From: Aeromicrobium fastidiosum | Lineage (GTDB): Bacteria > Actinomycetota > Actinomycetes > Propionibacteriales > Nocardioidaceae | Assembly (NCBI RefSeq): GCF_017876595.1 | Contig: NZ_JAGIOG010000001.1 | Location: forward strand, 1,426,001 to 1,490,000 | Direction of reading: 5' to 3' | DNA: 64,000 nt | In this document: positions 5,276 through 21,723 of the stretch, piece by piece | Position numbering within the stretch: the stretch's first letter is position 1 | Layout of the letters: every line of letters starts with the position of its first letter | Notes under the pieces: generated by a model | Told to the model about the DNA's origin: nothing | The model's input: only the letters and a program-made list of their open reading frames with translations | Databases searched by the model: none | Translations under genes and position numbers: made by a program

Positions 5276-5851
5276 ATGTCGGGGGGCATTGTGGAGCAAG
5301 AAAGCCAAGGATCGACGTCGCATCGGTTCGGCGCCACGGTGTGGCTGACCGGCCTGCCCAGCGCGGGCAAGTCGACTCTCGCTACGGAGCTGGCCGGGCG
5401 GGCGCGACGGGACTCGCGTGCGGTCGAAGTTCTCGACGGTGACGATGTCCGATCTTGGCTAACTCCCGATCTCGGATTCTCCCGGGAGGACCGCGACGCC
5501 AACGTTGTTCGTGTCGGCCGCGTCGCGCACCTGCTCGCCCGCAACGGCGTCCTGGTCCTCGTACCGGTGATCGCACCCTACGTGGCTAGCCGAGAGGTCG
5601 TCCGAGAGCTTCACGAGCAGGCGGGTTTGGCCTTCGTCGAGGTCCATGTCTCGACGTCGCTGGAGGAGTGCCAGCGCAGAGATGCCAAGGGCCTGTACGC
5701 CCGGCAGCGATCGCGGAGTCTCTCGGGGTTGACGGGGGTCGATGACCCCTACGAAATCCCTCCCGCTCCTGCCCTGCGTCTCGACACCGAGACCATGCTG
5801 GACGCGGCCGACGTGCTTGAGACGAAGCTACGAGCGCTCGGTCACTTGTAA
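5276..5851 (+). CDS. cysC: Adenylylsulfate (APS) kinase
   Basis: This cytoplasmic 191-aa kinase phosphorylates APS with ATP to give PAPS, the sulfate donor. The P-loop is GLPSAGKS (residues 26-33), followed by the DGDDVR substrate motif, FSREDRDANVVRVG, the VPVIAPY strand and the RDAKGLYARQRS lid region; FTGIDxPYE of the family appears as LTGVDDPYE. The ATG 5276 start leaves a short N-terminal tail; GTG 5291, behind a GGGGGG tract, is an alternative. No ATP sulfurylase (cysD/cysN or sat) is nearby, so it is not part of a full assimilation operon. Position next to a cluster with a sulfotransferase suggests PAPS supply for sulfation. Confidence 0.88.
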   Translation: MSGGIVEQESQGSTSHRFGATVWLTGLPSAGKSTLATELAGRARRDSRAVEVLDGDDVRSWLTPDLGFSREDRDANVVRVGRVAHLLARNGVLVLVPVIAPYVASREVVRELHEQAGLAFVEVHVSTSLEECQRRDAKGLYARQRSRSLSGLTGVDDPYEIPPAPALRLDTETMLDAADVLETKLRALGHL

Positions 5852-5862
5852 CCTGGTCCGCG

Positions 5863-6669
5863 TCAGGTCGGCGTCTTCGTGCGGGGCAACGTGCTGGCCA
5901 CTGAGTTGGCGGCCTGCAGTGCGACGTTCAGGCACGCGGCGGGGACGTCGTCGCGCCACGGCTGGATGCCAGCGGCCGAGACGATGCGCCGCAGCTGGTG
6001 GGCTGGCGGACTCTGCTCGGCCAGGCGTCCGGCACGCCACGCCTCGCGCAGCGCTATCCGCGCGCCCTTGCTGTTGCGGTGCGCCACCCGCAGGTCCGGG
6101 GTGAAGTAGACCTGCTCTCCCACCGCGGCCAGCCGCTCGACGAGACCGTTGTCGCTCGCTGTGACGACGTCGGGAAATCCTCCGGCGGCGAGGAAGGATC
6201 GCCGGAGGATCGCTGAGTTGCCACCGGCGAAGAACGTGACCGGCTCGAGGGACTGGTGCTGCGCGTACCGCACCTCGTACCGGTGCTGGCGGGCTCGGGA
6301 CACCACGCCGCTGTCGAACGGCAGCACCCGGCCCGTGATGGCTGTCCGGTGCGTCTGCAGGTCGCGGGAGATCACCGTGAACCAATGGGGCAGAGGGCGG
6401 GCGTCGTCGTCGAGGAACGCCAGGATGTCGCCCCCTGCGAGATCTGCCGCGATGTTGCGACTGACTGCTGCGCCCCGCTGCGACTGGTTGCGCAGCAGTC
6501 GGACTGGAAACCCGTGCTTTGCCACGTGCAGGGGGACATCTGAGGCATCGTCCACCACGACGACCTCGTGCAGTGACGGATGGTGCTCCCGCGCGATCGT
6601 CTCGAGGAGCAAGTCGATGTCGGTCTGCCGGTTTCTCGTGGCCACGACGATGGAGATCGTGCCCTTCAT
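5863..6669 (-). CDS. Family 2 glycosyltransferase, last gene of the biosynthetic operon
   Basis: This 268-aa GT-A glycosyltransferase starts with ISIVVATRNR, has VVVVDDASD (nucleotide-binding Asp), the RGAAVSRNIAA helix and the metal site FLDDDARP near residue 90, then FFAGGNSAILRR and the GGFPDV acceptor-side segment common in family 2 enzymes. There is no membrane segment. Its ATG overlaps the stop of the upstream ATP-grasp gene by 4 nt, so it ends a chain of coupled genes running from 19668. It probably adds a sugar to the cluster product; donor and acceptor are unknown. It converges on cysC with an 11-nt gap. Confidence 0.84.
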   Translation of the reverse strand: MKGTISIVVATRNRQTDIDLLLETIAREHHPSLHEVVVVDDASDVPLHVAKHGFPVRLLRNQSQRGAAVSRNIAADLAGGDILAFLDDDARPLPHWFTVISRDLQTHRTAITGRVLPFDSGVVSRARQHRYEVRYAQHQSLEPVTFFAGGNSAILRRSFLAAGGFPDVVTASDNGLVERLAAVGEQVYFTPDLRVAHRNSKGARIALREAWRAGRLAEQSPPAHQLRRIVSAAGIQPWRDDVPAACLNVALQAANSVASTLPRTKTPT

Positions 6670-7949
6670 CGTCCGCCCCCTTCGGACGACCGATCCGCGA
6701 ATGCGTCGAGCACCTCGTCGATCTCGCTCATGATCTGGCTCATCGTGGGAGATGGCGATGCACCGGCCGGGACAGTGGTGATGCGGATGTGGCTGGCCGC
6801 GTGCTCGGCGCGCCTGGTTGCCTCGGCGGCGTCACGTCCGGTGGCGATGACGAAGCCGCAACGGTCCTCCGACCATTGGACCGGATGGATCTGGTCGCTC
6901 ACGTCGACCTGGATCTTGACGACGTCGACGCCGTCCGCTGCGGCAGCCTCGGACTCGCCAGTGACGGACTGCACCGTGCCCGGGTCAGCCACCACGTAGC
7001 GGATGGCCGCGGCCCCGTCAGGAGCAGGAATCTCCAGGGGCCCGTCGTCCTCGTCGGCCAGCCGGTACGTGGCAGCTTCGAGGTCGATCCCGTACACGGC
7101 TTCGACGAGCTCGTTGATCCGGTCGCCACCTCGTCGGGAGTGGGACTCGATCACGTACGGCGCGTCATCGGTGATCATGATCTCGGTGTGTGCTGGTCCG
7201 TCCACGAAGCCGACCGCGTCGAGGACCTCGCCCACGAGCCGGTGGAGCGACACGACGGCGGCGTCGTCGAGATCGGCGGGAACCACGTGACCGAGCTCGA
7301 CGACGCCCTCGCCCGTGCTCTTGCCGGTGATGGCGACGATGGTGTGGCGGCGGTCGCGGGAGAACGACTCGACGGACACCTCTCGGCCTACCAGTCGCTT
7401 CTCCACGATCATGTCGGCCAGCCCGAACTGCCCGGCCCAGCTCCACGCGTCGTCGACCTCGTCGATCGAGCCGATCATGCGGACGCCGAGGCTGCCCGAC
7501 CCCATGGTCGGCTTGAGAACGGCGGGCCCGTGCTCGGCGATGAACTCGCGAGCCGTCGCCGCGTCGGGGTTCTTGAGGAAGGGCACCGTCGAGACATCGG
7601 CGGCGTTGAGGACTTGTCTCAGCGCGCTCTTGTCGTGGAGCGTCTGGGCCACCGTGAACCCGTTGCCAGGAAGTCCGAGGACGTCGACGAGGTGCCCGGC
7701 CGTCTGCAGTGCCGCCTCGGTCTGGGTGAACACCCGGACGAACGGGCGGCGGGCGTGCAGCGCCTCGACCAGCGCCGTCGTCGTCGGGACGTCCTGGTAG
7801 TCGACGAGCAGCACGTCGGTGCAGTGGTCGACGACCGCGGGGTCGAACGCGGAGGGCTTCTGGATGTTGACGACATCGAAGCCGAGGTCGGCGGCCTTCT
7901 TGATGATGGCGGCCTTGCCGCCTAGGACGAGGATGGGTAGTCCGGTCAT
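6666..7949 (-). CDS. ATP-grasp ligase 1
   Basis: This 427-aa ATP-grasp enzyme should form an amide or similar bond from a carboxylate via an acyl phosphate. It has a Rossmann-like preATP-grasp domain (PILVLGGKAAIIKKA), the ATP-binding lysine in GPAVLKPTMGSGSLGV, the MIVEKRLVGREVSVESF core and a metal-site segment YVIESHSRRGGDRINEL near residue 275, where families of this fold usually have Glu-x-Asn. It is homologous to the second ATP-grasp protein of the same operon (13216-14508), sharing VELGHV-x-PAD and the whole C-terminal layout. It overlaps its neighbours by 4 nt on both sides. Substrates cannot be assigned from sequence. Confidence 0.85.
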   Translation of the reverse strand: MTGLPILVLGGKAAIIKKAADLGFDVVNIQKPSAFDPAVVDHCTDVLLVDYQDVPTTTALVEALHARRPFVRVFTQTEAALQTAGHLVDVLGLPGNGFTVAQTLHDKSALRQVLNAADVSTVPFLKNPDAATAREFIAEHGPAVLKPTMGSGSLGVRMIGSIDEVDDAWSWAGQFGLADMIVEKRLVGREVSVESFSRDRRHTIVAITGKSTGEGVVELGHVVPADLDDAAVVSLHRLVGEVLDAVGFVDGPAHTEIMITDDAPYVIESHSRRGGDRINELVEAVYGIDLEAATYRLADEDDGPLEIPAPDGAAAIRYVVADPGTVQSVTGESEAAAADGVDVVKIQVDVSDQIHPVQWSEDRCGFVIATGRDAAEATRRAEHAASHIRITTVPAGASPSPTMSQIMSEIDEVLDAFADRSSEGGGR

Positions 7950-8752
7950 GTGAGATCACCTGGCAGGGTTGAGGGGCGGGCGTGGTCGAGGAGCTGGCTC
8001 CACGTGGTGAGGACGCTCGGGGGCAAGGGGAGGTCGCGATCAGGCTCCCGCGGTGGGCGGAGTGCTCGCAGGTGCTCCCACAGCGGCACACCGGTGAATT
8101 CCTCGAGGCGGGCCGTCTCCTCGCCGCGGCACAGCGCGTCGTACTCGATGACGATCCATCGGGCGGGGTCGAGCGAGCCGGCGTGGTCGAGCCATCGGCG
8201 GTTCCAGGTCTCCCACTTGGCCAAGGCCGCCGCCTCCGTGGTCGGCCGCCACGGTCGGTCACCCGTCCAGGCGAGCATCGACCGAGCCACATCGGTGGGG
8301 TGCCGGACGAGCATGACGTAGCGAGCTTCGGGTAGGAGTGAGTCGAGGTGCTCCAGGTGGAGCAGGTACTCGTTGTACTTGTCGCCCCACACGGAAACGT
8401 CTTTGTGGGCGTCGCGGAGTATGCGGCGACCGAGCGCGATCGGATCGGTGCCGGCGACTCCTTCGGCCACATCGGCCGCGAGCTCGCGCAGCACCATCTC
8501 GACGGCCGAGCGCCACCTCGCGGCACCCGGGCCCCCGGGGGGGCGTCGGTCGAGCGCGTGCAGGATCTCGTCCACGCGAAGATGGCGGTCCTCCAGATCG
8601 CGGCGGGTCAGCCACCGGTGCAACAGGTAGGGAAGCTTGCCGTTGACGACGAAGGTGCCGTTGGCCTCCGCGAACGCCTCCGCGAGGGCGTGCGCCAAGG
8701 CTGTCGTCCCCGAGCGCTGGCACCCGAGCAGCACCACGCCGTCCGGCGTCAC
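7946..8752 (-). CDS. PAPS-dependent sulfotransferase
   Basis: This 268-aa cytoplasmic protein has the sulfotransferase 5'-phosphosulfate loop GCQRSGTTAL directly at the N-terminus (residues 9-18) and the 3'-phosphate motif YVMLVRHPTDVARSM in the middle, as in the Sulfotransfer_1/3 families. WGDKYNEYL may carry the catalytic base region. GTG 8752 was chosen because it overlaps the upstream stop (GTGA) and starts just before the fold; a longer frame only shadows the neighbour. It should transfer sulfate from PAPS to a hydroxyl or amine of the cluster product, and the APS kinase at 5276-5851 could supply the donor. Confidence 0.85.
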   Translation of the reverse strand: MTPDGVVLLGCQRSGTTALAHALAEAFAEANGTFVVNGKLPYLLHRWLTRRDLEDRHLRVDEILHALDRRPPGGPGAARWRSAVEMVLRELAADVAEGVAGTDPIALGRRILRDAHKDVSVWGDKYNEYLLHLEHLDSLLPEARYVMLVRHPTDVARSMLAWTGDRPWRPTTEAAALAKWETWNRRWLDHAGSLDPARWIVIEYDALCRGEETARLEEFTGVPLWEHLRALRPPREPDRDLPLPPSVLTTWSQLLDHARPSTLPGDLT

Positions 8753-9597
8753 GAGGCCGCCTCGACGAGCTCGCGCAGCACCTGCATGCAGACGGTGCTG
8801 GCCTCGACGCCGCCACGGCTGAAGGACTCGCCGCACGGCTCGTCTCGTTCGGCCTGGGAGAGGATGCGGTCAGGGCGCCAGTGCGTTTCGAGCGACACCC
8901 ACCCGCGGTAGTCGTCCTGGACAAGCGCCGCGATGATCTCGGGCCACGGGAGGTCGCCGTCGCCGAGTCGGACGTAGCTGTCCTGACCGTCTGGATCCTT
9001 CACGTGCACGTGCCGGATGCGGTCGCGGCCGGCGAGGTAGTCGGCTGGGAACGGGGACGTGTCCCATCCGCTGAAGACACTGTTGCCTGGGTCCCACAGG
9101 ATGCCGGTGTGGTCGTCGCCGAGCGCGTCGAGGAAAGCCAGGACGTGGCGCATCGTGGGCGTGTTGGTGCGCATCCCGGTCTCGACGATGAGCGGGACCG
9201 CGCCCTGCGTGAGCCCGCTGAGGACCTCGCGGGCGACTGAGGCGGCGAGCATCGGGTCGGGATCGCCCGAACGGTAGAACGTGAAGATGCGCACGAACGG
9301 TGCGCCGAGCCGTTCGGCCCGGCGGATCGAGTCGACGACCAGCTCGCGCACCGCTGTCAGCTCGGCGTCGGTGCGGGGCAGCGCGCACTTCAGGGCCGGC
9401 GGGTCGAAGCCGCTGACGGCCAGGCCATGGCCGAGGACCACGGTGCGTACTCGATCAAGCTCGACATCACGCAGGTGATGGGGCGTCACCCCGTACGCCG
9501 AGCGGATCTCCAGGCCGTCGAAGCCGTTGGCGCTCGCGGTGCGGGCCGCGACGTCGACGTCCTGCGAGATCTCGTCGCTGATGATGGACAGTCTCAT
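8749..9597 (-). CDS. Sugar phosphate isomerase/epimerase-like TIM barrel protein 1
   Basis: This 282-aa protein belongs to the xylose-isomerase-like (AP endonuclease 2) TIM-barrel superfamily: RLSIISDEISQD at the first strand, GLEIR, the VRIFTFYRSGD strand, IVETGMRTNTP and LWDPGNSVFSG with acidic metal ligands, RHVHVKDPDGQ and a final LETHW. Members isomerise, epimerise or dehydrate sugars, cyclitols and keto acids; the reaction here is unknown. ATG 9597 overlaps the upstream stop by 4 nt. A second, more divergent protein of the same fold is directly upstream (9594-10337), suggesting two steps on a sugar-like intermediate or a heteromeric enzyme. Confidence 0.8.
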   Translation of the reverse strand: MRLSIISDEISQDVDVAARTASANGFDGLEIRSAYGVTPHHLRDVELDRVRTVVLGHGLAVSGFDPPALKCALPRTDAELTAVRELVVDSIRRAERLGAPFVRIFTFYRSGDPDPMLAASVAREVLSGLTQGAVPLIVETGMRTNTPTMRHVLAFLDALGDDHTGILWDPGNSVFSGWDTSPFPADYLAGRDRIRHVHVKDPDGQDSYVRLGDGDLPWPEIIAALVQDDYRGWVSLETHWRPDRILSQAERDEPCGESFSRGGVEASTVCMQVLRELVEAAS

Positions 9598-10337
9598 GCC
9601 CCTGCCTCCTTGTGCAGGTGGGAGGACAGCTGCCCGCCCCACCAGCCACGCATGGCGGCCAGGTCGTCGGCGATGGTCGGCGACCTGGTCTCGAGAGTGA
9701 TTGCCTCGACGCCTCCGGCTGCGGCGATGAGGCGTCGGGTAAGTGAGGAGCTGGCACCAGTGAGCGCCTCGTGGCGACTGGTCGAGACCTGGTCGGGGTC
9801 GAAACCCTTGACCTGGGCGAAGCGTGTCCAGGGGGCCAGACGTGCCGCGGCACCGACGGGGTCGTCGGTGATCCGCGCCAGCCCCATGGTGTCAAGCAGG
9901 ATAGAGACACCGAAGGTTCGCGCCAGCACCTCCAGTTCGTCGACATCGGCATAGCCGTGGTGGGTCTCCACCAGGACGTCGACCGAGCGGCCGACTCGGT
10001 CGACGAGGTCGGCAACGTGCCGGCGGGTGAGTTCTGCGGCAGGTGCTGCAGTGCAGCCAGCGGCGGCGAACACCTTCACCGGAACGCCCTCCCGCAGGTG
10101 GGCCGCTCCGGGGCCGGGGCGGTCGGCGTCGTCCTCCCGACCGAGGACCGAGCTGATGCCGACGAAGCAGACGTCGACACCTCCAGCGCGCAGGGCGTCG
10201 ATTCCTCCGGCCTCCCAGGCGTGATCCTTGCCGGCGCGCAGGTCGACCACGCTCCCACCATGTTCACGGGTCAGGGCCGCCAGGTCTGCCGCGTCCAGCT
10301 CGGGGGCACAGCCCGACGAGAGCCCGATCGGCATCAT
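9594..10337 (-). CDS. Xylose-isomerase-like TIM barrel protein 2
   Basis: This 247-aa protein starts with MMPIGLSSGC and shows a shortened TIM-barrel pattern: SVVDLRAGKDHAWE, VDVCFVGISSVLG, VKVFAAAG, VDVLVETHHGYADVDEL, ILLDTMGLAR, RFAQVKGFDP and ITLETRSP, the order of acidic strands seen in sugar isomerase/epimerase relatives. It is shorter than protein 1 and may lack part of the first strands. ATG 10337 makes an ATGA overlap with the upstream gene; ATG 10334 is equally possible. The substrate is unknown. The HHGYADVD and LLDTMGLAR motifs keep metal-ligand-type residues, so it may be catalytic. Confidence 0.65.
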   Translation of the reverse strand: MMPIGLSSGCAPELDAADLAALTREHGGSVVDLRAGKDHAWEAGGIDALRAGGVDVCFVGISSVLGREDDADRPGPGAAHLREGVPVKVFAAAGCTAAPAAELTRRHVADLVDRVGRSVDVLVETHHGYADVDELEVLARTFGVSILLDTMGLARITDDPVGAAARLAPWTRFAQVKGFDPDQVSTSRHEALTGASSSLTRRLIAAAGGVEAITLETRSPTIADDLAAMRGWWGGQLSSHLHKEAGA

Positions 10338-11269
10338 GCCGGACCGACCTGCCGATCGCGGACGTGCTCCAGCACCTGCGTGACGGCGCGGGCGCCGGCC
10401 AGGCCGGAACGCTCGGGCTGCCGTCCCGCGGCCACCGCGGCGGCCACGTCGCTGTAGACCGCCCGGCGTAGTGACGTGACGTCGAGGGGCTTGTGCCGGG
10501 TTGCGGTGCCCGCGACGTCCACCTCCACCTCGCCGTCGACGACCGTGAGCGCTCGGTCCGGCGCAACGATACTGAGCCTTTCGCGCCGGATCGTCGACTC
10601 GGCGCTGATCGTGAAGGCGAGGGTGGCGCCCGAGGCGAACGACAACCACCCGCTGACCCGGGTGTCGATGCCCGGCCCGGCGCAACGCGCTGGAGCCAGG
10701 TCGACGGTCAAGACGTCACCCAGCACCGTGCAGGCCAAGTCCAGGTAGTGCACCCCGAGGTGTGCCGTGATTCCGCCCAGCGCCTCGTCGACCGAGGTGC
10801 GCCACCCGGCCTTCTGGTAGTGCGAACCGGGTCGGTAGCGGAACACCTCAAGTACGCCGGTGACCTCAGGCCGTCGCCACGCGTCGATGTCGAGGTCGTT
10901 GGGCAAGCGCCACCGATGCTGCAGCATGACGCCCGCGCAACCGCCCGAGCGTCGCGCCGCGTCATCGATCGTCGTCAGCTCGGCCATCGACATGGCCGGG
11001 GGCTTCTCGAGCAGCACCGAACGGCCGGAAGACAGCGCCTCGATGGCTAGCGCGGCCCGGTCGCCCGGCGGAGTGCACAGCGCGACCAGCTGTACGTCGG
11101 AGTCGTCGAGCAGGTCGGCCCAGGCGGCCGCCCGTGGGAGGCCTCCGACGTCGACCGTCGGGTCGAGCTCGAGGACCTTGGTGACGTGGGCGTGAGGATG
11201 GTCATCCAGCGCATCGGCGTGCTGGCGGCCGGCCGACCCGAATCCGACGATCGCGACACCGAGGCTCAT
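10334..11269 (-). CDS. Gfo/Idh/MocA-family NAD(P) oxidoreductase
   Basis: This 311-aa oxidoreductase has the N-terminal Rossmann motif VAIVGFGSAGRQH (residues 5-17), the family hallmark LLEKPPAMS with catalytic Lys near residue 93, and HLGVHYLDLACTVLG, where the His pair usually sits. Family members oxidise or reduce a sugar or inositol hydroxyl with NAD(P), often C3 of UDP-GlcNAcA (WbpB type) or inositol (IolG type). Context with a UDP-sugar dehydrogenase and two TIM-barrel isomerases fits a sugar or cyclitol tailoring step. The start and stop are fused to the neighbouring genes by 4-nt overlaps. Confidence 0.85.
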   Translation of the reverse strand: MSLGVAIVGFGSAGRQHADALDDHPHAHVTKVLELDPTVDVGGLPRAAAWADLLDDSDVQLVALCTPPGDRAALAIEALSSGRSVLLEKPPAMSMAELTTIDDAARRSGGCAGVMLQHRWRLPNDLDIDAWRRPEVTGVLEVFRYRPGSHYQKAGWRTSVDEALGGITAHLGVHYLDLACTVLGDVLTVDLAPARCAGPGIDTRVSGWLSFASGATLAFTISAESTIRRERLSIVAPDRALTVVDGEVEVDVAGTATRHKPLDVTSLRRAVYSDVAAAVAAGRQPERSGLAGARAVTQVLEHVRDRQVGPA

Positions 11270-12798
11270 GGTGCGCCCACGTCCCAGCCGAGCTGATCCA
11301 CCACGGCTCGCGGCACGCGGACGCCGTCACGGTGAGCGCGCTCCTCGGCGGCGGTCTCCTGCTGCTCGGGCAGGTGGACGTCGGGGAGTTCGCCCAGATA
11401 GCCGCGCACCACCGCTTCGCGCAGCTCGTCGACCAGCTCGTGGATCGGTGGGTCGCCGAACGCCCGCGGCGAGAACGCGATGAACATCTGTGAGCAGTCC
11501 ATCGGGTGGTCGGGCTCGGCGCGCTGCTTGTGGACGCGGGGACTGATCGTGGCCCCGGCTAACACGCCGGCGAGCACCTCCGTGATGAGGGCGACCCCCA
11601 GACCCTTGTAGCCGCCGAACACCGGGACAGCCCCGCCGGCATCGAGCTGGTGCGGGTCGGTGGTGGGCCGGCCGCGCCGGTCGACCAGCCACTCCGGAGG
11701 CACGGGACGGCCGCGGTGCGCGGCGTCGCGGATCTTGCCGCTGGCAACGATGCCGGTGGCGAAGTCGACGATGAAGGGACGACTGCCCTCGAGAGGTGCG
11801 ACGAGGCACACTGCGTCGTTGCCGAGCGTCGCTCGTCCCGCACCGGGTGCCGCGACGCTGGGGCCCGAGACGTTGAACACCAGGCCCACGACGCCGTGCC
11901 GGGTGAATGAGTCACGGTAAGCCGCCAGCATGCCGATGTGGTTGTTGCCACGGACACCGACCGCGGCGATACCCGACACGGCGGCGTCCTCGGCCACGGT
12001 CTGAGCGGCCAGCTCGGCCGCGACCTGCCCGAAGCCACCCTGCGCGTCGAGGACCTTGACGACGCCCATCTCACTGACCCACTGCGGGTCGGCCACCGGG
12101 TCGATGCCGCCTGCACGGATCCGGTCGACGTACATGGGCAGCAGCCCGACGCCGTGCGAGAAGTGACCGCGGGCATCCGCGTCGACGAGCACCCGGGCGA
12201 CGAGAGCAGCACGCCGGGGCGCCACGCCTTCGGCGCACAGTGTCGCGGTCACCAGCTCAGTGAGGTCGGCCAAGGCGATGATCGGATCTTGGACCGCCGA
12301 CGCGGCGGGATCTGTGAGCGGCTCGACCTCGACCTGCCGGTCGGCGGCTGCAGCGAGCTGCTCGTCGGCGGTGACGACAAGCACTGCTGCTCCGCCACCG
12401 GCGAGCACGTGCACCTCGGAGACAGAGGCTCCTGCAGGCGCCGTGCCGGCGTCGACGACGATCGCCCGACAGCTGGGGTCGAGGTTGCCGACCCTGTCGA
12501 GCTCGACTGTGACCAGCCCTCGCGGGGTGCGGGGGGCGATGCGTCGCGACGTGCTCGCACCCACCGAGATCAGCCCGTACTGGGCCTGTCGGCGGCCACT
12601 CAGCGTCTCGACGAGCGCTGCCGCAACGTCACGAGTCGGGCATCGCAGCGCGACCACCTCGCCGGGCTGCGCGTGGGCAGTCAGACCGGGCACGACGATG
12701 GACTCGTTCCCGGTCGGTCCCTGCGCGACGATGAGATCGGTGACGTGGATCCCGCCACTGGCTCTGCCGGATGATCGCGCCCCCCCGAGAGCGTTCAT
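11266..12798 (-). CDS. Ldh-family (malate/L-lactate type) dehydrogenase with degenerate ABC-like N-terminal domain
   Basis: Residues about 176-510 form a complete Ldh_2-family NAD(P) dehydrogenase: ADLTELVTATLCAEGVAP, DARGHFSHG with the catalytic His, GVRGNNHIGMLAAYRD, VFNVSGPSVAAPGAGRATLG and DFATGIVASGKI. Relatives reduce or oxidise 2-keto/2-hydroxy acids. The preceding 170 residues are extra and look like a worn-out ABC ATPase: GLTAHAQPGEVVALRCPTRD aligns with the strand leading to a Walker A loop but lacks GxGKS, RAIVVDAGTAP sits where Walker B would be, and VVTADEQLA resembles the H-loop with His replaced by Ala. ATG 12798 overlaps the upstream stop by one base (TGATG), so the extension is in frame and genuine. 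Confidence 0.82.
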   Translation of the reverse strand: MNALGGARSSGRASGGIHVTDLIVAQGPTGNESIVVPGLTAHAQPGEVVALRCPTRDVAAALVETLSGRRQAQYGLISVGASTSRRIAPRTPRGLVTVELDRVGNLDPSCRAIVVDAGTAPAGASVSEVHVLAGGGAAVLVVTADEQLAAAADRQVEVEPLTDPAASAVQDPIIALADLTELVTATLCAEGVAPRRAALVARVLVDADARGHFSHGVGLLPMYVDRIRAGGIDPVADPQWVSEMGVVKVLDAQGGFGQVAAELAAQTVAEDAAVSGIAAVGVRGNNHIGMLAAYRDSFTRHGVVGLVFNVSGPSVAAPGAGRATLGNDAVCLVAPLEGSRPFIVDFATGIVASGKIRDAAHRGRPVPPEWLVDRRGRPTTDPHQLDAGGAVPVFGGYKGLGVALITEVLAGVLAGATISPRVHKQRAEPDHPMDCSQMFIAFSPRAFGDPPIHELVDELREAVVRGYLGELPDVHLPEQQETAAEERAHRDGVRVPRAVVDQLGWDVGAP

Positions 12799-13178
12799 CA
12801 GTTCTTCGGTTCGAGGAACTCGAGGCGATTGCCGAGCTTGTCGAAGGCGTAAAACCGCTCGTGGCCAGGGAAGTTGTCGTCCCACGTCACCTCATACCCT
12901 TGGTCCTCCAGCCGGGCGGCCAGGCCATGGATCGAAGACACGAGGATGCCAGGGTGAGCCTTCTTGGCCGGGCTGAAGTCCTGCTCGACGCCAAGGTGCA
13001 CCTCGAGTCCCCCGCCACGGAACCAGCACCCGCCTCTTGCGGCCAGCACGGGCGGCTTCTCCAGCTCGGTCATGCCGAGCACCTCGCCCCAGAACTCGCG
13101 GCACTGGTCCTCGGCGCCCGCGGGAATCGCGAGCTGGACGTGGTGGAGCCCCTCGAGGCTGTAGTCGTTCGCGGTCAT
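12798..13178 (-). CDS. VOC (glyoxalase/bleomycin resistance) family protein
   Basis: This 126-aa protein is a single vicinal-oxygen-chelate domain of two beta-alpha-beta-beta-beta units: LHHVQLAIPAG (metal His), FWGEVLGMTELEKP, GGGLEVHLGVE (His), then FYAFDKLGNRLEFLEP (Glu). The metal-type residues H, H and E appear kept, so it may be an enzyme (isomerase, lyase or dioxygenase type) rather than only a drug-binding protein. ATG 13178 has a good GGAGAG ribosome site 7 nt upstream and excludes a long shadow extension. It sits between ATP-grasp 2 (37-nt gap, the longest in the operon) and the Ldh fusion gene. Confidence 0.85.
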   Translation of the reverse strand: MTANDYSLEGLHHVQLAIPAGAEDQCREFWGEVLGMTELEKPPVLAARGGCWFRGGGLEVHLGVEQDFSPAKKAHPGILVSSIHGLAARLEDQGYEVTWDDNFPGHERFYAFDKLGNRLEFLEPKN

Positions 13179-13215
13179 CTTCGCACTCTCCTTGTGATGG
13201 GTGATCAGAACTGCG

Positions 13216-14508: not shown

Positions 14509-15812
14509 GTGTCCTCCGGGGTCGGGTGGGAGCCGGACGTCTGTCCAGCCTCCGCGGGATCGGGGGTAGGGGTGTCGGGGAGGTGACGCGAGCCGAGATT
14601 GCTGATGAGGGCTGCCAGGGGCAGCACGGCAGCGACGAACAGCCATCCCTCGGGGCCGGCGTGGGCGATCAGCCACAGCAGGACGACCGGGCCGATGATC
14701 TCGGCAGCCGAGAATCCGAGGTCGTAGAAGGCGAGGTAGCGCCCTTGGCCGACGATCGGGGACATGGCGAACGACACCTCCCACGACGCCGCTGAGTGCA
14801 GGAGCTCGGCCATGGTCAGCAGCAGGAGGGCGCAGAACAGCGCCACGGCCGTGGCGATGGCACCGTCGGTGTGCCCGCTGACGGTGAACGCGCCGCACGC
14901 CGCCGACAGTGTGCATGCGGACACCCACATGGAGCGTCGTGCGGAGCGCGGGTCGGCGATGTGCCGGGTCACCGGGACCTGGCAGAAGATCGTCAGCACG
15001 GTGTTGGTCACGACGAGGGCTGTGACCATCCAGATCGGGGCCTCGGTGTGCTCGGCGACCCACAGCGGCAGCACGACGGTCAACATCGCGTCGTGCAGGA
15101 ACAGGATGCCGTTGGCAAGCGTCACGGTGACGAACGATCGATCGCGGATCGGCGGTACGACGGGCTCAGGCTTGTCCGAGTCGTCGGTCACCCGCACGTC
15201 GACATTCGGCAACCGCAGGAGGGTCAGCGCGATGACGACGAAGCTGAGGGCGTTGCCGATGAACAGGAGCCGGAACGCCTCGACCGTTCCCACGGTCAGC
15301 GCGATGCCCGCCAGACCGAAGCCGATCGTGAACCCGACGTTGTGGAGCGACCGGATGAAGCCCATCGTGCGGTTGCGCTCAGTGCCGGTGATGAGCCGGC
15401 CGACCAGCGCCTGGTTGAGCGGCTGGCCGGCTCGGTCCACGAGGTAGAGCAGGCACGCGGCGACCAGGAACTGGGTGAATCCGGAGATGAAGAGGTAGGC
15501 GATGTAGCCCGCGGCCCGCCAGACCGCGGCGGCGACAAGGACGTTGCGGGGTCCGTAGCGGTCGCCGAGACGGCCGATCGGCACCGTCGTCGCCAGGCCG
15601 ATCGCGCCAGCGATGGCCAGCACGACGCCGAGCTGCGGCTCGGACACGTCCGCGAAGCGGGTGAAGTAGATCGCCGATCCGGCAAGGAACAGTCCGGTCC
15701 CGGTCGATCCGACGAGGGCGTTCAGGGCGATGATGCGTGACGCCCGGGTCGCGGGCAGGCTCCCGACGAGTCGGGCACGCAACCCGCTGCTCGTCTGGTC
15801 GGTGTCTGTCAT
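14505..15812 (-). CDS. MFS exporter of the biosynthetic operon
   Basis: This 435-aa major facilitator protein has about 12 hydrophobic segments and the GRLGDRYGPRN loop between helices 2 and 3 that marks the superfamily, with a central cytoplasmic loop rich in Asp and Pro (RVTDDSDKPEPVVPP). It likely exports the small-molecule product of the operon or gives self-protection. ATG 15812 overlaps the deacetylase stop by 4 nt; a much longer open frame upstream is only the shadow of the deacetylase gene. The tail is rich in Pro, Thr and Asp and probably cytoplasmic. Confidence 0.86.
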   Translation of the reverse strand: MTDTDQTSSGLRARLVGSLPATRASRIIALNALVGSTGTGLFLAGSAIYFTRFADVSEPQLGVVLAIAGAIGLATTVPIGRLGDRYGPRNVLVAAAVWRAAGYIAYLFISGFTQFLVAACLLYLVDRAGQPLNQALVGRLITGTERNRTMGFIRSLHNVGFTIGFGLAGIALTVGTVEAFRLLFIGNALSFVVIALTLLRLPNVDVRVTDDSDKPEPVVPPIRDRSFVTVTLANGILFLHDAMLTVVLPLWVAEHTEAPIWMVTALVVTNTVLTIFCQVPVTRHIADPRSARRSMWVSACTLSAACGAFTVSGHTDGAIATAVALFCALLLLTMAELLHSAASWEVSFAMSPIVGQGRYLAFYDLGFSAAEIIGPVVLLWLIAHAGPEGWLFVAAVLPLAALISNLGSRHLPDTPTPDPAEAGQTSGSHPTPEDT

Positions 15813-16594
15813 CGGGAACCCTCCGCTCCGTCGTCGAGCTTCCAGTCGCGGTGCCACCGGTCGATCAGGTCGGGCCAGAGCAGTTGGTGGCCGGACGGCA
15901 GGTAGGTCCGCCTGATCGACTGGGGGTGGTCGGTCCACGGGGTGGCGGGAGACCTGACCGAGCCGAAGGCGAGAGTGCCGTCGGGCAGGTCGATCCGCTC
16001 GGGTATGCCGCCGTATGGGTAGGCGAACAGTCGCGCTGCTGCGGGACCGTAGCGCCGGGCGATGTCCTCGATCGAGCCGAGCGCCTCGTCCTGAACCCTT
16101 CCGGGGTCGATGCGGTCCAGGTGCGGATGGGTCCGGGTGTGCGCCGCGACGACGTGGCCGTCGTCGACGAGGGCGTCGCACTCCGTGAGACTCATGTAGT
16201 CCTCGCGGGCGTGGGCGGAACGCTGTCCGAGGAGCCCGGTGCAGGCGAAGAACACGGCCCGCACGCCGACGTCGCGCAGGATGGCACGTGCGATGTCGTG
16301 ATTGTCGCGGTAGCCGTCGTCGAACGTGATCAGGACGGACGGCTCTTCGGGACGCGGCACGGCCTCGCGCCCGAACGACCGGGGGTCCAGCGGCGTGAAG
16401 CGGGCGAGGACGGCTTCGAGGCCGGCGGCGAACGACGTGGGCGTCAGGGCGGTGTAGTGCCGGACGTCGGGGTGCACGTGGTGGAAGTAGAGGACCAGCG
16501 GCCAACCAGCAGCGCTGCCCTGCGCTGGTTGATGCTCGTCGAGGACGCCTGGGACGAGGGGAGTGCGGTGGTCAGCGGTCGCGGGGCGTGTCAC
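15809..16594 (-). CDS. Polysaccharide deacetylase (NodB-type) family protein
   Basis: This 261-aa carbohydrate esterase 4-like protein has motif 1 VLITFDDGYRDN (the Asp pair for catalysis and metal), motif 2 HTRTHPHLDRI (metal His residues), and FAYPYGGIPE for motif 3. Family members remove N-acetyl or other acyl groups from amino sugars or related amides. No signal peptide is seen, so it should act in the cytoplasm, unlike cell-wall deacetylases; that suits a role on a biosynthetic intermediate. GTG 16594 overlaps the NRPS stop (GTGA) and starts 24 codons before the first conserved strand LVLYFHHV. Confidence 0.86.
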   Translation of the reverse strand: MTRPATADHRTPLVPGVLDEHQPAQGSAAGWPLVLYFHHVHPDVRHYTALTPTSFAAGLEAVLARFTPLDPRSFGREAVPRPEEPSVLITFDDGYRDNHDIARAILRDVGVRAVFFACTGLLGQRSAHAREDYMSLTECDALVDDGHVVAAHTRTHPHLDRIDPGRVQDEALGSIEDIARRYGPAAARLFAYPYGGIPERIDLPDGTLAFGSVRSPATPWTDHPQSIRRTYLPSGHQLLWPDLIDRWHRDWKLDDGAEGSR

Positions 16595-19500
16595 AGGTGA
16601 CCGCCGTCTGCAGGTGCGGCCGATTCGTCGAGCACCTCGGTCATCACGTCCTCGATGCTGGCGGCGAGCCGCGCGATGTCGGAGGGGTCCCACCGACCCG
16701 TCGAGTACTTGAGCGACACCTCGAGTTCGCCGTCGACGATGTCGCCCTCGACCATGAGCAGGTATCGCTCGCGCTGGCGAGGGGACCGGTGCGCGCCGAA
16801 GTCTTCCGTCGCCGGCCGCAGGACCTGCTCGGTCGCGCGTTGTTCGAGCCGCAGCAGGTGACCGCGGAAGTTGAGCCGGACCGCCGGTCGCGGCAGTGAC
16901 GACAGCTGCTGGCGCACGTCGGCGTCCGGGGAGCAGAACCGGAGGGCGTCGAAGCCGTATCGCCGGACGGGGATCTGTGCGAGCTGGCCGAAAGCGGCGT
17001 CGAAGGCACGCCGCCCGGAGCCCTGCCAGTCGACGACGACTGGAAAGGTGCTCTGGACGTAGGCCACGGTGCGCGACAGATCGAGATCGCCCACCGCGAT
17101 GTCGCGGCTGTGCGCGTACACGTCGACGCCGTGCGTGGTCTCGCCGGACCAGCGGGCCAGCCCGCCGGCCAGGCAGCACAGCACGAACGCATGGGTCGGG
17201 ATGTCCTGACGGCCCAGCTCGGTCATCGTCGAGGTCAGCTTGGCCGAGAGCCGGAACCGGTCGGTGCGCAGGGTGGGCAGGCGGTCGTCGTCGTCGCGTG
17301 TGGCACGCAGGGCGGCGAACGGGCGGGTCGACGTCGCCCAGTCGCGTGCGTCCTGGCGGGCTTCTGCGGTGGTGAGCCAGGTCGTCAGCGCCTCGCCCAC
17401 GGCGCGGGGACCGGTCACGGCCGACGTCACGTGGGCACCGGCCAGCAGGTTCTCGAGATCGTCCACGAGCAGGCCCACGGAGACGCCGTCGAGCACGAAG
17501 TGGTGCACGGTCAGCAGCATCCGCGCCGAGCCGTCGCCCAGCTCGAGCACCAGCAGCTGCAGCACCCGACCCGTGGACAGCGACAGCGAGGTCTGAGCGT
17601 CAGCGAGGTGCTGCTCGACGGTCGAGCGCTGCTCCGACGGCGGGACGTCGCGAAGATCGACGACGCGGACGGCATCGCGTGCCCCCTCGATGTCGTTGGT
17701 GCCGAGTCGGACCGACCCGTCGTCCAGCAGCGCCGTTCGCAGGGCAGGGTGGCGCTCCCGTAGCGACTGCACGACACCGACGAGCTCGTCGACGTCGCGT
17801 CCGGGGTCGGTGGAGAACAACGCGTTCAGGCAGAACTGGTCTGGATCGACCAGAGGACCGTCGTGCAGCCATCGGTGCTGCGCAGGCAGCATCGCAACGG
17901 GACCAGCTTCCTCGGGAGCCCGGCTCGCGGCACCATCGGACCGCTCGATCGCCCGGTCGACGGCTGCCCGCGCAGTTCGGGCGTGCAGGAGATCGGTGGG
18001 TCGCAGGGGAAGTCCGGAGTCGCGGGCATGAGCACTGATCCGCATCGCCATGAGGGAGTCGCCGCCGGCCCCGATGAAGTCGTCGTCGGGGCCGATGCCG
18101 GGATCGAGCAGCAGCTCACGCATGAGCCCGACGACGACGCTCAGCGGGTCGTCGCCGACCGACGACGGCACGGCCGCGGGACGGCTCAGCCGATCGGCGG
18201 CGCGGCGACGATCGATCTTCCCGGACGTGGTCAGGGGCAACGAGTCGGTCACGCTGATGACAGTGGGCACGAGGTAGCTCGGCACCCGCCCCCCGATCTC
18301 ACGGCGGATCGACTCGCTGGTCAGGCCGCTCGATCCGGTGACCGCGGCACCCAGGACGCTGCCGCCGGCACCGTCGTCCAGGACGAAGGCGACCGCGGCC
18401 GTGACCCCGTTGGCCTCGAGGAGGTGACGGTCGATCTCCTCGAGCTCGATGCGGTGCCCGCGGACCTTGACCTGGTTGTCGACACGACCAAGGAACTCGA
18501 GCTGCCCGGTGGAGTGCTCGACGACGAGGTCGCCGGTGCGATACATGCGGGTGCCGCTGTCGCTCCACGGGTCGGGGCGGAAACGGTCGGCGGTCTGGTC
18601 AGGGTCGTCGAGGTAGCCGTCGGCCAGGGTCGAGCCGCCGATCCAGAGCTCGCCGGGGTCGCCGGCCGTGGTCGGCCTGCCCTCGGCGTCCACGACATGC
18701 GCGACACGGTCGCCGACCGCGGTCCCGATCGGCAACCCCGCCGAGGTTGGAAGCGGGTCATGGGGTCCGATGGTGAAGGCCGTGGCAGTGACGACGGCCT
18801 CTGTCGGTCCGTACCCGTTGACGAGGGTGGTGTGGCCCAGGGCCGAGGCGCGGTGCGCCGCGAGATCGAGCGCGGTCGCGTTCTCACCACCGATGACCAC
18901 GATCGCCACGCCGGCGAAGAGGGGCGCATCGGCGGGCGTGAGGGTCTGGCACGCCAGACGCCAGTAGGCGGTGGGAAGCTGTAGGACGGTGACACCCAGC
19001 GACGAGGTCACGTCCCCGAGCTCGGCGACGTCGGGGACGGGTCCCTCGAAGAAGGCGACCGTGCCGCCCGCGACGAGCGTCGGCCAGATCTCCTCCTGTG
19101 CCACGTCGAAGGCGATGCTCGCGAACTGCAGGACGACCGAGCCGCTCGAGAGGCCGAGGAGACCGATGATGTCATCGGTGTGCCGACGGAGTGCGTCGTG
19201 GCCGACGACAACCCCCTTCGGAGACCCGGTCGAGCCGGACGTGTAGATGACGTAGGCGGCGTCGCGCGGGACCTTGGTGGTGTCGAGCCCCCGCACGGCA
19301 AGTCCGGTCTCGATCGTCGCGGCGGCACCGGAGCGACTGAGGATCTCGGCGCGGCGTTCGTCAGGAGTCGACTGGTCGATCGGGACGAAGGCCGCTCCGC
19401 TCAACCAGGTGCCCAGCATCGCGACCACGACGTCGGGCCCGCGGGGCACCTGGACCGCCACGAGGTCGGCCTCGCGCACGCCGACCTCGCGGAGCTGTCG

Positions 19501-19668
19501 AGACATGGCAATGGCGCGGTCCCAGAGCTCCGAAGCCGTGACCGACACGGACGAGGTCGTGAGGGCGACGGAGTCGGGGGCGAATTCCACGCGCTGACGA
19601 AGTGCGCTCAGCACACCTTGACGCCCAGGCGCTTCGCGCCCTGCGCAGGCGTGGTTCGTCAAAGACAT
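16591..19668 (-). CDS. NRPS-like protein, adenylation-carrier-epimerization(-like) architecture
   Basis: This 1025-aa single module activates an amino acid and loads it on its own carrier. Residues about 15-495 are the adenylation domain: YTSGSTGSPKG (142-152), FDVAQEEIW, NGYGPTE (284-290), YRTGDL, GRVDNQVKVRGHRIE and SGK with Lys484. FD at 187-188 gives the Asp typical of alpha-amino acid substrates. The carrier is at 505-575 with phosphopantetheine Ser538 in GGDSL. Residues 590-1025 match an epimerization domain (PAQHRW, HHFVLDG at 722-728, DLDLSRTV, LNFRG), but the usual EGHGRE catalytic motif reads YAHSRD at 851-856. There is no condensation or thioesterase domain. A GGGGGGAA ribosome site precedes ATG 19668. 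It is the first gene of the operon. Confidence 0.9.
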   Translation of the reverse strand: MSLTNHACAGREAPGRQGVLSALRQRVEFAPDSVALTTSSVSVTASELWDRAIAMSRQLREVGVREADLVAVQVPRGPDVVVAMLGTWLSGAAFVPIDQSTPDERRAEILSRSGAAATIETGLAVRGLDTTKVPRDAAYVIYTSGSTGSPKGVVVGHDALRRHTDDIIGLLGLSSGSVVLQFASIAFDVAQEEIWPTLVAGGTVAFFEGPVPDVAELGDVTSSLGVTVLQLPTAYWRLACQTLTPADAPLFAGVAIVVIGGENATALDLAAHRASALGHTTLVNGYGPTEAVVTATAFTIGPHDPLPTSAGLPIGTAVGDRVAHVVDAEGRPTTAGDPGELWIGGSTLADGYLDDPDQTADRFRPDPWSDSGTRMYRTGDLVVEHSTGQLEFLGRVDNQVKVRGHRIELEEIDRHLLEANGVTAAVAFVLDDGAGGSVLGAAVTGSSGLTSESIRREIGGRVPSYLVPTVISVTDSLPLTTSGKIDRRRAADRLSRPAAVPSSVGDDPLSVVVGLMRELLLDPGIGPDDDFIGAGGDSLMAMRISAHARDSGLPLRPTDLLHARTARAAVDRAIERSDGAASRAPEEAGPVAMLPAQHRWLHDGPLVDPDQFCLNALFSTDPGRDVDELVGVVQSLRERHPALRTALLDDGSVRLGTNDIEGARDAVRVVDLRDVPPSEQRSTVEQHLADAQTSLSLSTGRVLQLLVLELGDGSARMLLTVHHFVLDGVSVGLLVDDLENLLAGAHVTSAVTGPRAVGEALTTWLTTAEARQDARDWATSTRPFAALRATRDDDDRLPTLRTDRFRLSAKLTSTMTELGRQDIPTHAFVLCCLAGGLARWSGETTHGVDVYAHSRDIAVGDLDLSRTVAYVQSTFPVVVDWQGSGRRAFDAAFGQLAQIPVRRYGFDALRFCSPDADVRQQLSSLPRPAVRLNFRGHLLRLEQRATEQVLRPATEDFGAHRSPRQRERYLLMVEGDIVDGELEVSLKYSTGRWDPSDIARLAASIEDVMTEVLDESAAPADGGHL

Positions 19669-19778
19669 GTCGGTTCCCCCCGAGGGACACTCTGTCAGAA
19701 GCAATCGTAGGCTAGCAGCGGGCGGAGGCGGCTGCCATGGCAGCCGCCTGGGCGTGCAGCGTCGAGATCGGGGGATCT
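19669..19778. promoter_or_regulatory. Divergent promoter region with 24-bp perfect palindrome
   Basis: This 110-bp space separates the leftward NRPS operon from the rightward dehydrogenase/PPTase pair and must hold both promoters. Positions 19726-19749 form a perfect palindrome with no spacer, half-site AGGCGGCTGCCA, centred on an NcoI-like CCATGG. Its size, symmetry and location suit a dimeric regulator controlling both directions. No cognate regulator gene is in the cluster. A leftward -10-like element is hard to fix. Confidence 0.55.
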
Positions 19779-21053
19779 GTGAAGAGTCATGCTGTGGTGA
19801 TCGGGATGGGCTATGTGGGCCTGCCGCTCGCCATGAACTTGGTCGAGTCGGGGCTGTCGGTGGTTGGTTACGACACCGATGCCGGCGTGGTCGAGAGCCT
19901 CAATGCCGGGTCTTCCCACGTCGACGACGTGAAGGCCGACGCAGTCAGGCGTGCCCTGCAGAGAGGGTTCCGAGCATCTTCGGATCCGTCCGAGATCATC
20001 GACGCCACTGAGGTGATCGTCTGCGTGCCCACGCCGTTGGACGTGGACGGCCAACCGGACCTCCGGCACGTCGAGGCCGCCGCCCGGGCGATCGGTCAGC
20101 ACGTTCGGCCGGGAGCGCTGTGCGTCCTGGAGTCGACCATCTATCCCGGGACCACCGAGAAGATCTTCGCTCCGCTCGTATCGGCCGGCGGGCTCGTCGT
20201 GGGCAGCGACGTCTTCGTCGCCTTCTCTCCGGAGCGCATCGACCCCGGCAATCCCGAGTTCGGGATCCGCAACACGCCGAAGGTGGTCGCAGGCATGACG
20301 CAGGAGTGCACGCGGCGGGCGCGCTCGTTCTACGAGCAGATCGTCTCGACCGTCGTCGAGGCACGTGGCACGAGGGAAGCCGAGATGGCCAAGCTCCTCG
20401 AGAACTCGTTCCGCCACGTCAACATCGCCTTGGTCAACGAGCTGCTTCGCCTGTGCAACGAGCTCGAGATCGACCTGTGGGACGTCATCCGTTGCGCTGA
20501 GACCAAGCCCTTTGGGTTCATGGCGTTTCGGCCCGGCCCAGGCGTGGGCGGGCACTGCATCCCGGTCGACCCCGGATACCTACGACATCACGTCCGCAAG
20601 GAGCTTGGCTCGCCCTTCCGGATGCTTGAGCTGGCGGAGGAGGTCAACGCTGGTGCGCCCCGCTACGTCGTCGAGCGGGTGCAACGCATGCTCAACGACG
20701 CGTCACGGCCGGTGAAGGGTTCATCTCTCCTCCTTGTCGGGGTGACGTACAAGCCGGATGTCGCCGACTGTCGAGAGACTCCGGCAGCTCCCATCGCGCG
20801 GCGGCTCGCGGACTGGGGTGCTGCTGTGCGATTCCACGACCCTCTCGTCGAGTCCTGGAGTCCCTGTCCGGGAGGCGAGCCCGCTCTGCAACGGGTCGAC
20901 GACGTCTACGTCGCGGCGGCCGAGGCCGACCTGGTGGTCCTGCTGCAGCCCCACGCCGAGTACGACTTGGAGAGGCTCGCGGGGTCCAGCGTGCTCCTGC
21001 TGGACACCAGCGGTCGGGTGCAGCAGTGCACGGCAGCCGTCCAGCGGCTGTGA
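19779..21053 (+). CDS. Nucleotide-sugar 6-dehydrogenase (UDP-GlcNAc/ManNAc dehydrogenase type)
   Basis: This 424-aa NAD-dependent dehydrogenase oxidises C6 of a UDP-sugar twice to the uronic acid. It shows the N-terminal VIGMGYVGLPLA loop, VPTPLD, ESTIYPGTTE, FSPERIDPGN, KLLENSFRHVNIALVNE and the catalytic cysteine in GPGVGGHCIPVDP near residue 265; LLVGVTYKPDVADCRETP is the C-terminal UDP-binding domain. These features place it with WbpA/WecC rather than plain UDP-glucose dehydrogenases. GTG 19779, behind GGGGA, begins right at the Rossmann strand. It runs divergently from the NRPS operon and probably provides a uronic acid for its pathway (with WbpB-like Gfo/Idh downstream) or for surface glycans. 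Confidence 0.88.
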   Translation: MKSHAVVIGMGYVGLPLAMNLVESGLSVVGYDTDAGVVESLNAGSSHVDDVKADAVRRALQRGFRASSDPSEIIDATEVIVCVPTPLDVDGQPDLRHVEAAARAIGQHVRPGALCVLESTIYPGTTEKIFAPLVSAGGLVVGSDVFVAFSPERIDPGNPEFGIRNTPKVVAGMTQECTRRARSFYEQIVSTVVEARGTREAEMAKLLENSFRHVNIALVNELLRLCNELEIDLWDVIRCAETKPFGFMAFRPGPGVGGHCIPVDPGYLRHHVRKELGSPFRMLELAEEVNAGAPRYVVERVQRMLNDASRPVKGSSLLLVGVTYKPDVADCRETPAAPIARRLADWGAAVRFHDPLVESWSPCPGGEPALQRVDDVYVAAAEADLVVLLQPHAEYDLERLAGSSVLLLDTSGRVQQCTAAVQRL

Positions 21054-21096
21054 CCGCGTCGTCGTCAGACCCCCGGCCAGCGGTCGAGGAGGTGTA

Positions 21097-21723
21097 GTGG
21101 ACCAGCAGGCGGTGTGGCGGTTCGTGCCTGTCGCCGAGGTTGGCGACGCTCTCGTGGCGCTGTCGTGCGCGGAGTCGAGCAGGGCTGCCCTGTTCAGGCA
21201 TCAGACCGACCGCACGGCGTACGTGGCGGCGCACCGACTCGTCCGGGAGTGTGCCGGAGCTCTTCTCGGAGTGACGGCGGGGAGCCTGGTGGTGGAGTCG
21301 TCATGCCCCGACTGCGGCAGCGACGAGCACGGCGTCCCTCGCCTCGCCGGGCGCGGTGACGTGTCGATCAGTCTGAGTCACACGCGAGGGCATGTGGCGG
21401 CGGTCGCGCACTGGGTCGGCTGCGGCATCGACGTCGAGCGCCTCGATCGTCCGGGACCTCCGCGGTCGGCTCTGACTGTCCGTGAGCAGGGGTGGATCGA
21501 CTCTCAGGAGGAGCCTCGAGCCTCAGCCATTCGGGTATGGGTACGCAAGGAGGCACTCATCAAGTCTGGCGTCGGCACCCTCGATGCCGCCCGTAGTGTC
21601 GAGGTCGTCGATCGTAGAGGTTTGCGTGACACGGTGAACAGGAAGGTCGTCCACGAGTGGTCGGTGCCAGGCGCCGTGGGAGCGGTGGCCCTCGGGTTGC
21701 GATCGCAGTATGGGTTGGAATAG
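21097..21723 (+). CDS. 4'-phosphopantetheinyl transferase (Sfp type)
   Basis: This 208-aa transferase moves phosphopantetheine from CoA to a carrier serine. It contains CPDCGSDEHGVPRL, SISLSHTRGHVAAV, the metal site GIDVERL (GxDxE) and RVWVRKEALIKSGVGTL (WxxKEAxxK), all hallmarks of Sfp-type enzymes. GTG 21097 was chosen for the strong GAGGAGGT ribosome site 4 nt upstream. It follows the sugar dehydrogenase by 43 nt and is probably cotranscribed with it. The NRPS-like protein across the divergent promoter has the only carrier domain in the window, so it is the likely client (inference). Confidence 0.9.
   Translation: MDQQAVWRFVPVAEVGDALVALSCAESSRAALFRHQTDRTAYVAAHRLVRECAGALLGVTAGSLVVESSCPDCGSDEHGVPRLAGRGDVSISLSHTRGHVAAVAHWVGCGIDVERLDRPGPPRSALTVREQGWIDSQEEPRASAIRVWVRKEALIKSGVGTLDAARSVEVVDRRGLRDTVNRKVVHEWSVPGAVGAVALGLRSQYGLE

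Follow-up and report, generated by a model that had tools for sequence, protein, structure and literature searches.

Among described systems, the Nod factor genes (NodB, NodC, NodH and NodPQ) offer a first point of comparison, bulgecin and the ascamycin acm cluster are further systems with sulfur-containing products, and the YcjS/YcjR 3-keto-glucoside system pairs a Gfo/Idh dehydrogenase with a TIM-barrel epimerase. Here, we analyzed a 64,000-nucleotide stretch of the Aeromicrobium fastidiosum genome (assembly GCF_017876595.1, contig NZ_JAGIOG010000001.1, positions 1,426,001 to 1,490,000 of the forward strand), called the window below and numbered from its first letter. It carries an operon of twelve leftward genes, from 19668 to 5863, accompanied by genes for a uridine diphosphate (UDP)-sugar dehydrogenase (UDPDH) and an adenosine-5′-phosphosulfate (APS) kinase. 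We consider it fairly likely that this cluster makes a secreted, sulfated aminouronic-acid glycoside that would then be decorated with amino acids.

As in the Nod factor genes, a deacetylase, a family 2 glycosyltransferase (GT2), a sulfotransferase and a dedicated supply of 3′-phosphoadenosine-5′-phosphosulfate (PAPS) appear to serve one secreted amino sugar whose freed amine is acylated. In contrast to them, the cluster has a uronic acid dehydrogenase and an extra set of Gfo/Idh, two TIM-barrel, Ldh-type and vicinal oxygen chelate (VOC) proteins, and nonribosomal peptide synthetase (NRPS)/ATP-grasp or PaaK-like proteins replace the acyltransferase. Neither the NodA acyltransferase nor the NodC chitin synthase was among the matches listed for the window proteins in Pfam and NCBIfam. 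The streptothricin and mycothiol pathways likewise transfer N-acetylglucosamine (GlcNAc), deacetylate it and use ATP to aminoacylate the freed amine, but they do so with other partner enzymes, and neither is known to include sulfation. The predicted structure of the cluster protein TIM-1 matches that of YcjR (6wn6) in its fold, whereas TIM-1 and YcjR are 14-15% identical in sequence and the cluster adds a second TIM barrel, the Ldh-type enzyme and the VOC protein to the Gfo/Idh pairing. Bulgecin keeps its N-acetyl group. It is a sulfated glycopeptide that shares with the predicted product a sulfate, an amino sugar and an amino acid amide; this likeness is one of description rather than of sequence. 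PMC5472815 gives the bulgecin gene cluster as not yet located. In the ascamycin acm cluster (PMC9113183), a sulfotransferase, an ATP sulfurylase and an APS kinase lie within one actinomycete cluster. Sulfotransferase and sulfate-activation genes inside the cluster are thus common to both, but the acm product is a nucleoside sulfamate without an aminouronate core.

The locus was first picked out by a sequence-only reading, and families were then assigned by Pfam profile scans covering 20 window proteins. All twelve genes lie at the positions given earlier. They had been described as joined almost throughout by overlaps of 1-4 nt, which is borne out at 10 of the 11 junctions: nine are 4-nt overlaps and one (VOC/Ldh) is a 1-nt overlap, the remaining junction (ATP-grasp 1/VOC) being a 37-nt gap. 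The sugar dehydrogenase and the 4′-phosphopantetheinyl transferase (PPTase) said to run divergently from the operon were both recovered by Pfam. The APS kinase, which converges on the operon end, had gone unmentioned. The features are listed below.

16591..19668, minus strand: NRPS-like protein with an adenylation (A) domain, a peptidyl carrier protein (PCP) and an epimerization (E)-like domain of the condensation superfamily without the usual catalytic Glu (Pfam AMP-binding, PP-binding, Condensation; TIGR01733 above cut-off)
15809..16594, minus strand: NodB/polysaccharide-deacetylase-type deacetylase (PF01522; TFDDGY and HTxTHPH kept in 6/6 aligned)
14505..15812, minus strand: predicted major facilitator superfamily (MFS) exporter (PF07690)
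13216..14508, minus strand: ATP-grasp L-amino-acid-ligase-type enzyme 1 (PF13535 and LAL_C2 above cut-offs; PDB match to the BL00235 ligase)
12798..13178, minus strand: VOC (glyoxalase-like) protein (PDB 2qqz match, E 2e-35; Pfam 20.1 bits against a cut-off of 20.6)
11266..12798, minus strand: Ldh_2-type dehydrogenase (PF02615 at residues 175-503) with an N-terminal degenerate ABC-ATPase-like domain (about residues 1-165)
10334..11269, minus strand: Gfo/Idh/MocA oxidoreductase (PF01408, PF22725)
9594..10337, minus strand: TIM-1, divergent xylose-isomerase-like TIM barrel (predicted structure model)
8749..9597, minus strand: TIM-2, sugar isomerase/epimerase (AP_endonuc_2, PF01261)
7946..8752, minus strand: PAPS-dependent-type sulfotransferase (PF13469; QRxGTT motif in 6/6 aligned)
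6666..7949, minus strand: ATP-grasp L-amino-acid-ligase-type enzyme 2 (PF13535, ATPgrasp_N and LAL_C2 above cut-offs)
5863..6669, minus strand: GT2 glycosyltransferase (PF00535)
about 5276..5851, plus strand: APS kinase (CysC), open frame from 5153 (PF01583, E 3e-51)
19737..21053, plus strand: UDPDH, UDP-N-acetylhexosamine (HexNAc)-type sugar dehydrogenase of the WecC/TviB class (TIGR03026 above cut-off)
about 21097..21723, plus strand: PPTase, window only (PF01648)

Related loci came from three sources. When named genomes were scanned with ATP-grasp 1, five loci emerged: three complete Streptomyces or Kitasatospora clusters, one fragment on a contig (AW19M42) and the decayed remnant in Williamsia. 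S. albidoflavus NBC 01671, Streptomyces WA1-19 and UYFA156, the last of which was covered in part, came from plasmid records. In a Streptomyces sample around genome G310, 7 of 392 genomes held a close Ldh protein, five of them (G310 included) in the fused form with the full cluster and two in a variant. Two of the more distant plasmid matches of ATP-grasp 1, H4 (39%) and H7 (36%), proved to belong to unrelated clusters and were set aside. Loci with the same gene set as the window are called type A, and the ten complete type A relatives from Streptomyces and Kitasatospora make up, with the window and four variants, the 15 complete loci; the AW19M42 fragment and the Williamsia relic are left out of this count.

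In all ten type A relatives, 13 genes lie on one strand in the same order, UDPDH-NRPS-NodB-MFS-ATPgrasp1-VOC-Ldh-Gfo/Idh-TIM1-TIM2-ST-ATPgrasp2-GT2 (ST, sulfotransferase), and because this order repeats in 10/10 we rejected a chance association. The earlier proposal that the operon is one functional unit is backed by this shared order. That proposal had looked ahead to at least eight of the families staying together with no characterized match, and 13 colinear genes were found, the literature searches described below giving no characterized counterpart. The cluster proteins of the ten relatives are 45-72% identical to those of the window; the VOC protein (window 12798-13178) is the best conserved, at 79-85%. 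A UDPDH homologue, 45-50% identical, heads the operon in 10/10, with only a short match in G735; the window UDPDH and APS kinase occupy the same places as in these relatives, in the opposite orientation. The PPTase had been counted as part of the system, but a search of the other 15 stretches gave no match to it, and it is hence local to the window. In G735 (L043), a transposase-like open reading frame (ORF), recognized by eye, splits the operon between Gfo/Idh and TIM-1; given this ORF and the short UDPDH match, the G735 locus may be decaying. In 8/10 type A relatives (for example, L005), a 332-amino-acid regulator-like protein, X_332, whose C-terminus looks helix-turn-helix-like by eye, is encoded about 0.5-0.7 kb before UDPDH; it has no match in the window stretch. 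Polyketide synthase (PKS) genes flanking the S. albidoflavus-type plasmid clusters were rejected as members, since among the matches listed the block shared with the other loci starts at the regulator-like X or at UDPDH and ends with the Cys and, in some, ABC genes.

Beyond type A, NodB, GT2, sulfotransferase, Gfo/Idh, TIM-1, TIM-2, Ldh and VOC were found in 15/15 complete loci and UDPDH in 14/15. The four variant loci (G543, G862, pFRL2 and G969) all matched these eight proteins and MFS, and three of the four matched UDPDH. The NRPS has no match in G543, G862 or pFRL2, where a PaaK/F390-synthetase-like protein, 53-85% identical among the three, stands in its place. The ATP-grasp enzymes have no match in G862 and pFRL2, which carry an enolase-family gene (80% mutual identity) whose best models, DgcA and L-Ala-D/L-Glu epimerase, both score below cut-off. 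In G543 a distant ATP-grasp (36%) lies past an M13 (neprilysin-type) peptidase gene (L046:10314-12269), so placed between the core and the ATP-grasp gene; the peptidase was weighed as a self-resistance clue and not used. In G969 the core adjoins an A-PCP protein, a ketosynthase-acyltransferase-acyl carrier protein (KS-AT-ACP)-like protein, thioesterase-like ORFs and an ATP-grasp, names that were given by eye apart from the BLAST matches. The pFRL2 locus (Streptomyces sp. FR1; L052 7323-20035) is a compact PaaK-type cluster on a 94-kb mobilizable linear plasmid. Since the core is kept while the NRPS/ATP-grasp part is swapped in four loci, we infer that the core makes a common scaffold, which the NRPS and ATP-grasp enzymes would decorate. 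Both ATP-grasp enzymes of the window exceed the curated cut-offs for ATP-grasp_4 and LAL_C2, as L-amino-acid-ligase-type proteins would. The sequence-only reading had them amide-link amino acids; their domains agree with this, but their lack of a match in G862 and pFRL2 places them as decoration rather than as a universal step.

Sulfation had been called optional, but from the gene content it does not look so: a sulfotransferase is present in 15/15 complete loci, APS kinase in the window and 9/10 type A relatives (absent from G709), and CysD and CysN in 8/10 type A relatives. The two exceptions are the K. aureofaciens stretch, which ends inside CysD, and G709, which has neither. In two annotated Streptomyces plasmids, the operon itself contains the APS kinase gene. 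Genome G000, with one CysD elsewhere, indicates that the host can supply APS. Occurring together, the sulfotransferase, CysC, CysD and CysN speak for a sulfated product, and sulfation looks central to it.

The UDPDH has three UDPG_MGDP domains in Pfam. It scores best with UDP-HexNAc (UDP-ManNAc, UDP-GlcNAc) models (WecC 256 bits, archaeal UDP-ManNAc 236, TviB 199, versus 166 for AglM and 116 for TuaD among UDP-glucose dehydrogenases), with no equivalog cut-off reached, so that the donor is likely, though not certain, to be an aminouronic acid. The earlier suggestion of a modified sugar or cyclitol acid is thereby shifted towards an aminouronic acid, with a cyclitol acid as another possibility. 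GT2 and NodB together suggest glycosylation and de-N-acetylation. In Gfo/Idh, E88-K89-P90 and H170, H174 and D177 are invariant in 11 aligned sequences, as are E139, D169, H198 and E237 of TIM-2 in 10 and E124, D149, Q175 and E216 of TIM-1 in 11; we take these to be catalytic or metal positions. TIM-1 gave no sequence match in Pfam or PDB. Its structure model is a xylose-isomerase-like TIM barrel, a predicted fold common to ketose 3-epimerases and the 3-keto-glucoside 4-epimerase YcjR; Art22 is also among the fold matches of this model, and a literature search on it gave no relevant paper. The Ldh domain groups with ureidoglycolate, sulfolactate and diketogulonate reductases by NCBIfam and structure comparison. 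Oxidation and isomerization next to a ketone, known from YcjS/YcjR and inositol chemistry, would fit the Gfo/Idh and TIM enzymes.

The NRPS-like protein had been read as A-PCP-E. The A and PCP domains stood, but the last domain looks E-like and lacks a hallmark of E domains. It scores 48.4 bits with TIGR01720, below the cut-off of 74.2, and although HHxxxDG is present as HHFVLDG in 6/6 aligned sequences, all six have YAHSRD where PvdL has EGHGRE, so the Glu that is catalytic in E domains is missing. Because of this replacement, epimerization appears doubtful, and our guess is that the domain carries out amide transfer to the freed amine. Relatives in PDB include PvdL, TycA and GrsA, the best being the first matched domain of PvdL. 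The A-domain pocket, at its presumed positions, reads D-V-E-Q-V-G-G-V/I-T-K in six aligned sequences. Codes of the form D-x-E may be among those for basic amino acids; no amino acid was assigned to the pocket.

In its first 165 or so residues, the Ldh protein looks like an ABC ATPase, and the Walker A motif GxxGxGK[ST] is absent from the N-terminal sequences compared. G543 has a separate gene for this domain (178 amino acids), which sits at the corresponding position between VOC and Gfo/Idh and shares 41-56% identity with the fused forms; stretches matching it adjoin Gfo/Idh in G862 and pFRL2, the latter as an unannotated ABC-like stretch at 15141-15410. Next to the WA1-19 cluster lies an ABC ATPase that is 46.8% identical to the N-terminus of the G969 Ldh protein over 64 residues (E 1.9e-8, calculated for that 32-kb stretch), and on this account the domain is likely, though not proven, to be of ABC-ATPase ancestry. 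Weaker ABC matches were CcmA (E 2.5e-4, under cut-off), hhalign (39.7%) and Foldseek (E from 7.9e-5, on a poor model; the full-length Ldh protein gave a poor structure model). The N-terminus of the window's own Ldh protein had no NCBIfam match.

In the pathway that we propose, substrates, order of steps and product are inferred, set beside the gene families, gene order, core and exchangeable module that were observed. UDPDH would oxidize a UDP-HexNAc to its uronic acid, GT2 would join this to an acceptor, and the NodB-type enzyme would take off the N-acetyl group. Gfo/Idh, TIM-2, TIM-1, the Ldh-type enzyme and VOC would oxidize, isomerize or epimerize, and reduce the sugar, or else make the acceptor. 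The sulfotransferase would add sulfate from PAPS made via APS kinase, the A-PCP-E-like protein and the two ATP-grasp ligases would put amino acids on the freed amine and/or the carboxyl, and MFS would export the product. Several points weigh against this scheme. The UDP-glucose dehydrogenase model AglM scores 166 bits on UDPDH, so the sugar is not fixed; no UDPDH match was found in the 32-kb stretch of G969; and in the four variants MFS identity is as low as 29-33%, so it may not be the same gene as in type A. Some pairs of relatives are close, and the relatives thus do not count as independent samples. Sugar catabolism, too, typically involves Gfo/Idh, TIM and Ldh families, and both the product and the enzyme activities are predictions.

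A second question is whether the product is new. The earlier reading knew of no described cluster with this set, and in agreement with it our literature searches, in which subscription journals were thinly covered, returned no matching cluster; with ten operon proteins, NCBIfam gave no equivalog at cut-off among the matches listed (the best 25 of 99 for the NRPS and the best 25 of 40 for ATP-grasp 1). This is a real and conserved cluster family, and probably an undescribed one. That the product is a sulfated natural product described before, its gene cluster having gone unrecognized, is unlikely, if worth keeping in mind. It would bear on novelty and be compatible with the mechanism above, and the much-screened genera of the ten type A loci speak for it; the searches just given and the generic annotation of the cluster proteins in plasmid records speak against it. 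We give slightly less than even weight to a bolder proposal, an undescribed natural product class. Here the conserved core (UDPDH, NodB, GT2, sulfotransferase, Gfo/Idh, TIM-1, TIM-2, VOC and Ldh with its ABC-derived domain) would make a new sulfated aminouronate pharmacophore, and the acylation modules (A-PCP-E-like with ATP-grasps, NRPS-PKS-ATP-grasp, or a PaaK-like ligase, which in two loci is joined by an enolase-family racemase) would be exchanged. The dead ABC-ATPase domain would be a fixed partner of Ldh, and the Glu-less E domain an amide-forming transfer domain.

Modification of a cell-surface polysaccharide (teichuronic-acid-like or capsule), in which an aminouronic acid of the glycan would be sulfated and aminoacylated, is improbable. 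Genes of the UDPDH, GT2, NodB and sulfotransferase kinds are typically seen in glycan loci, and in the window Pfam placed two further GT2 genes, an epimerase and DUF2142 near the operon. However, these flanking genes have no match in the other 15 stretches (within the genus, DUF2142 occurs in 1/40 other genomes and the epimerase in 0/40, which gave no empty site), the conserved set has one glycosyltransferase and an MFS carrier with no flippase or polymerase, and glycan loci do not usually carry NRPS or PaaK modules. A catabolic operon degrading a sulfated amino sugar via Gfo/Idh, TIM, Ldh and the deacetylase is highly improbable, since the oxidoreductase and isomerase families are common in catabolism but the sulfotransferase, PAPS supply and UDP-sugar-dependent enzymes are anabolic and no sulfatase or sugar kinase was found among the 20 window proteins scanned with Pfam.

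The cluster is rare and mobile, as judged from its distribution. Counting the window's genome, the Ldh protein occurs in that genome alone among 118 near relatives and in 2/396 of a phylum sample, TIM-2 in 2/396 of the phylum sample and TIM-1 in 3/394 of a class sample. Homologues of TIM-1 and TIM-2 are found in four Streptomyces plasmid records, three of which hold the cluster or a variant, the fourth (UYFA156) being seen in part. In Williamsia sp. CHRR-6 (L008 / L029-L030), window 11734-13414 recurs as a 1.7-kb stretch at 95.8% identity, and small pieces with 88-97% nucleotide identity match, among others, window 10370-10437 and the far flank (21745-21830 and 23613-23675, next to DUF2142). 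This remnant looks like a scrambled relic of nearly the window locus, left by recent transfer and then decay.

Where a core is conserved and its decoration modules are exchanged, a bioactive scaffold is often involved, and a sulfated, aminoacylated aminouronate, if that is the product, would be a polar scaffold of an unusual kind, one that may be missed by standard extraction. The compact versions on Streptomyces plasmids, of about 12-13 genes, could serve for expression and testing. Taken together, the cluster family also raises two enzyme questions, the role of an ABC-ATPase relic in a dehydrogenase and the role of an E domain without its glutamate.

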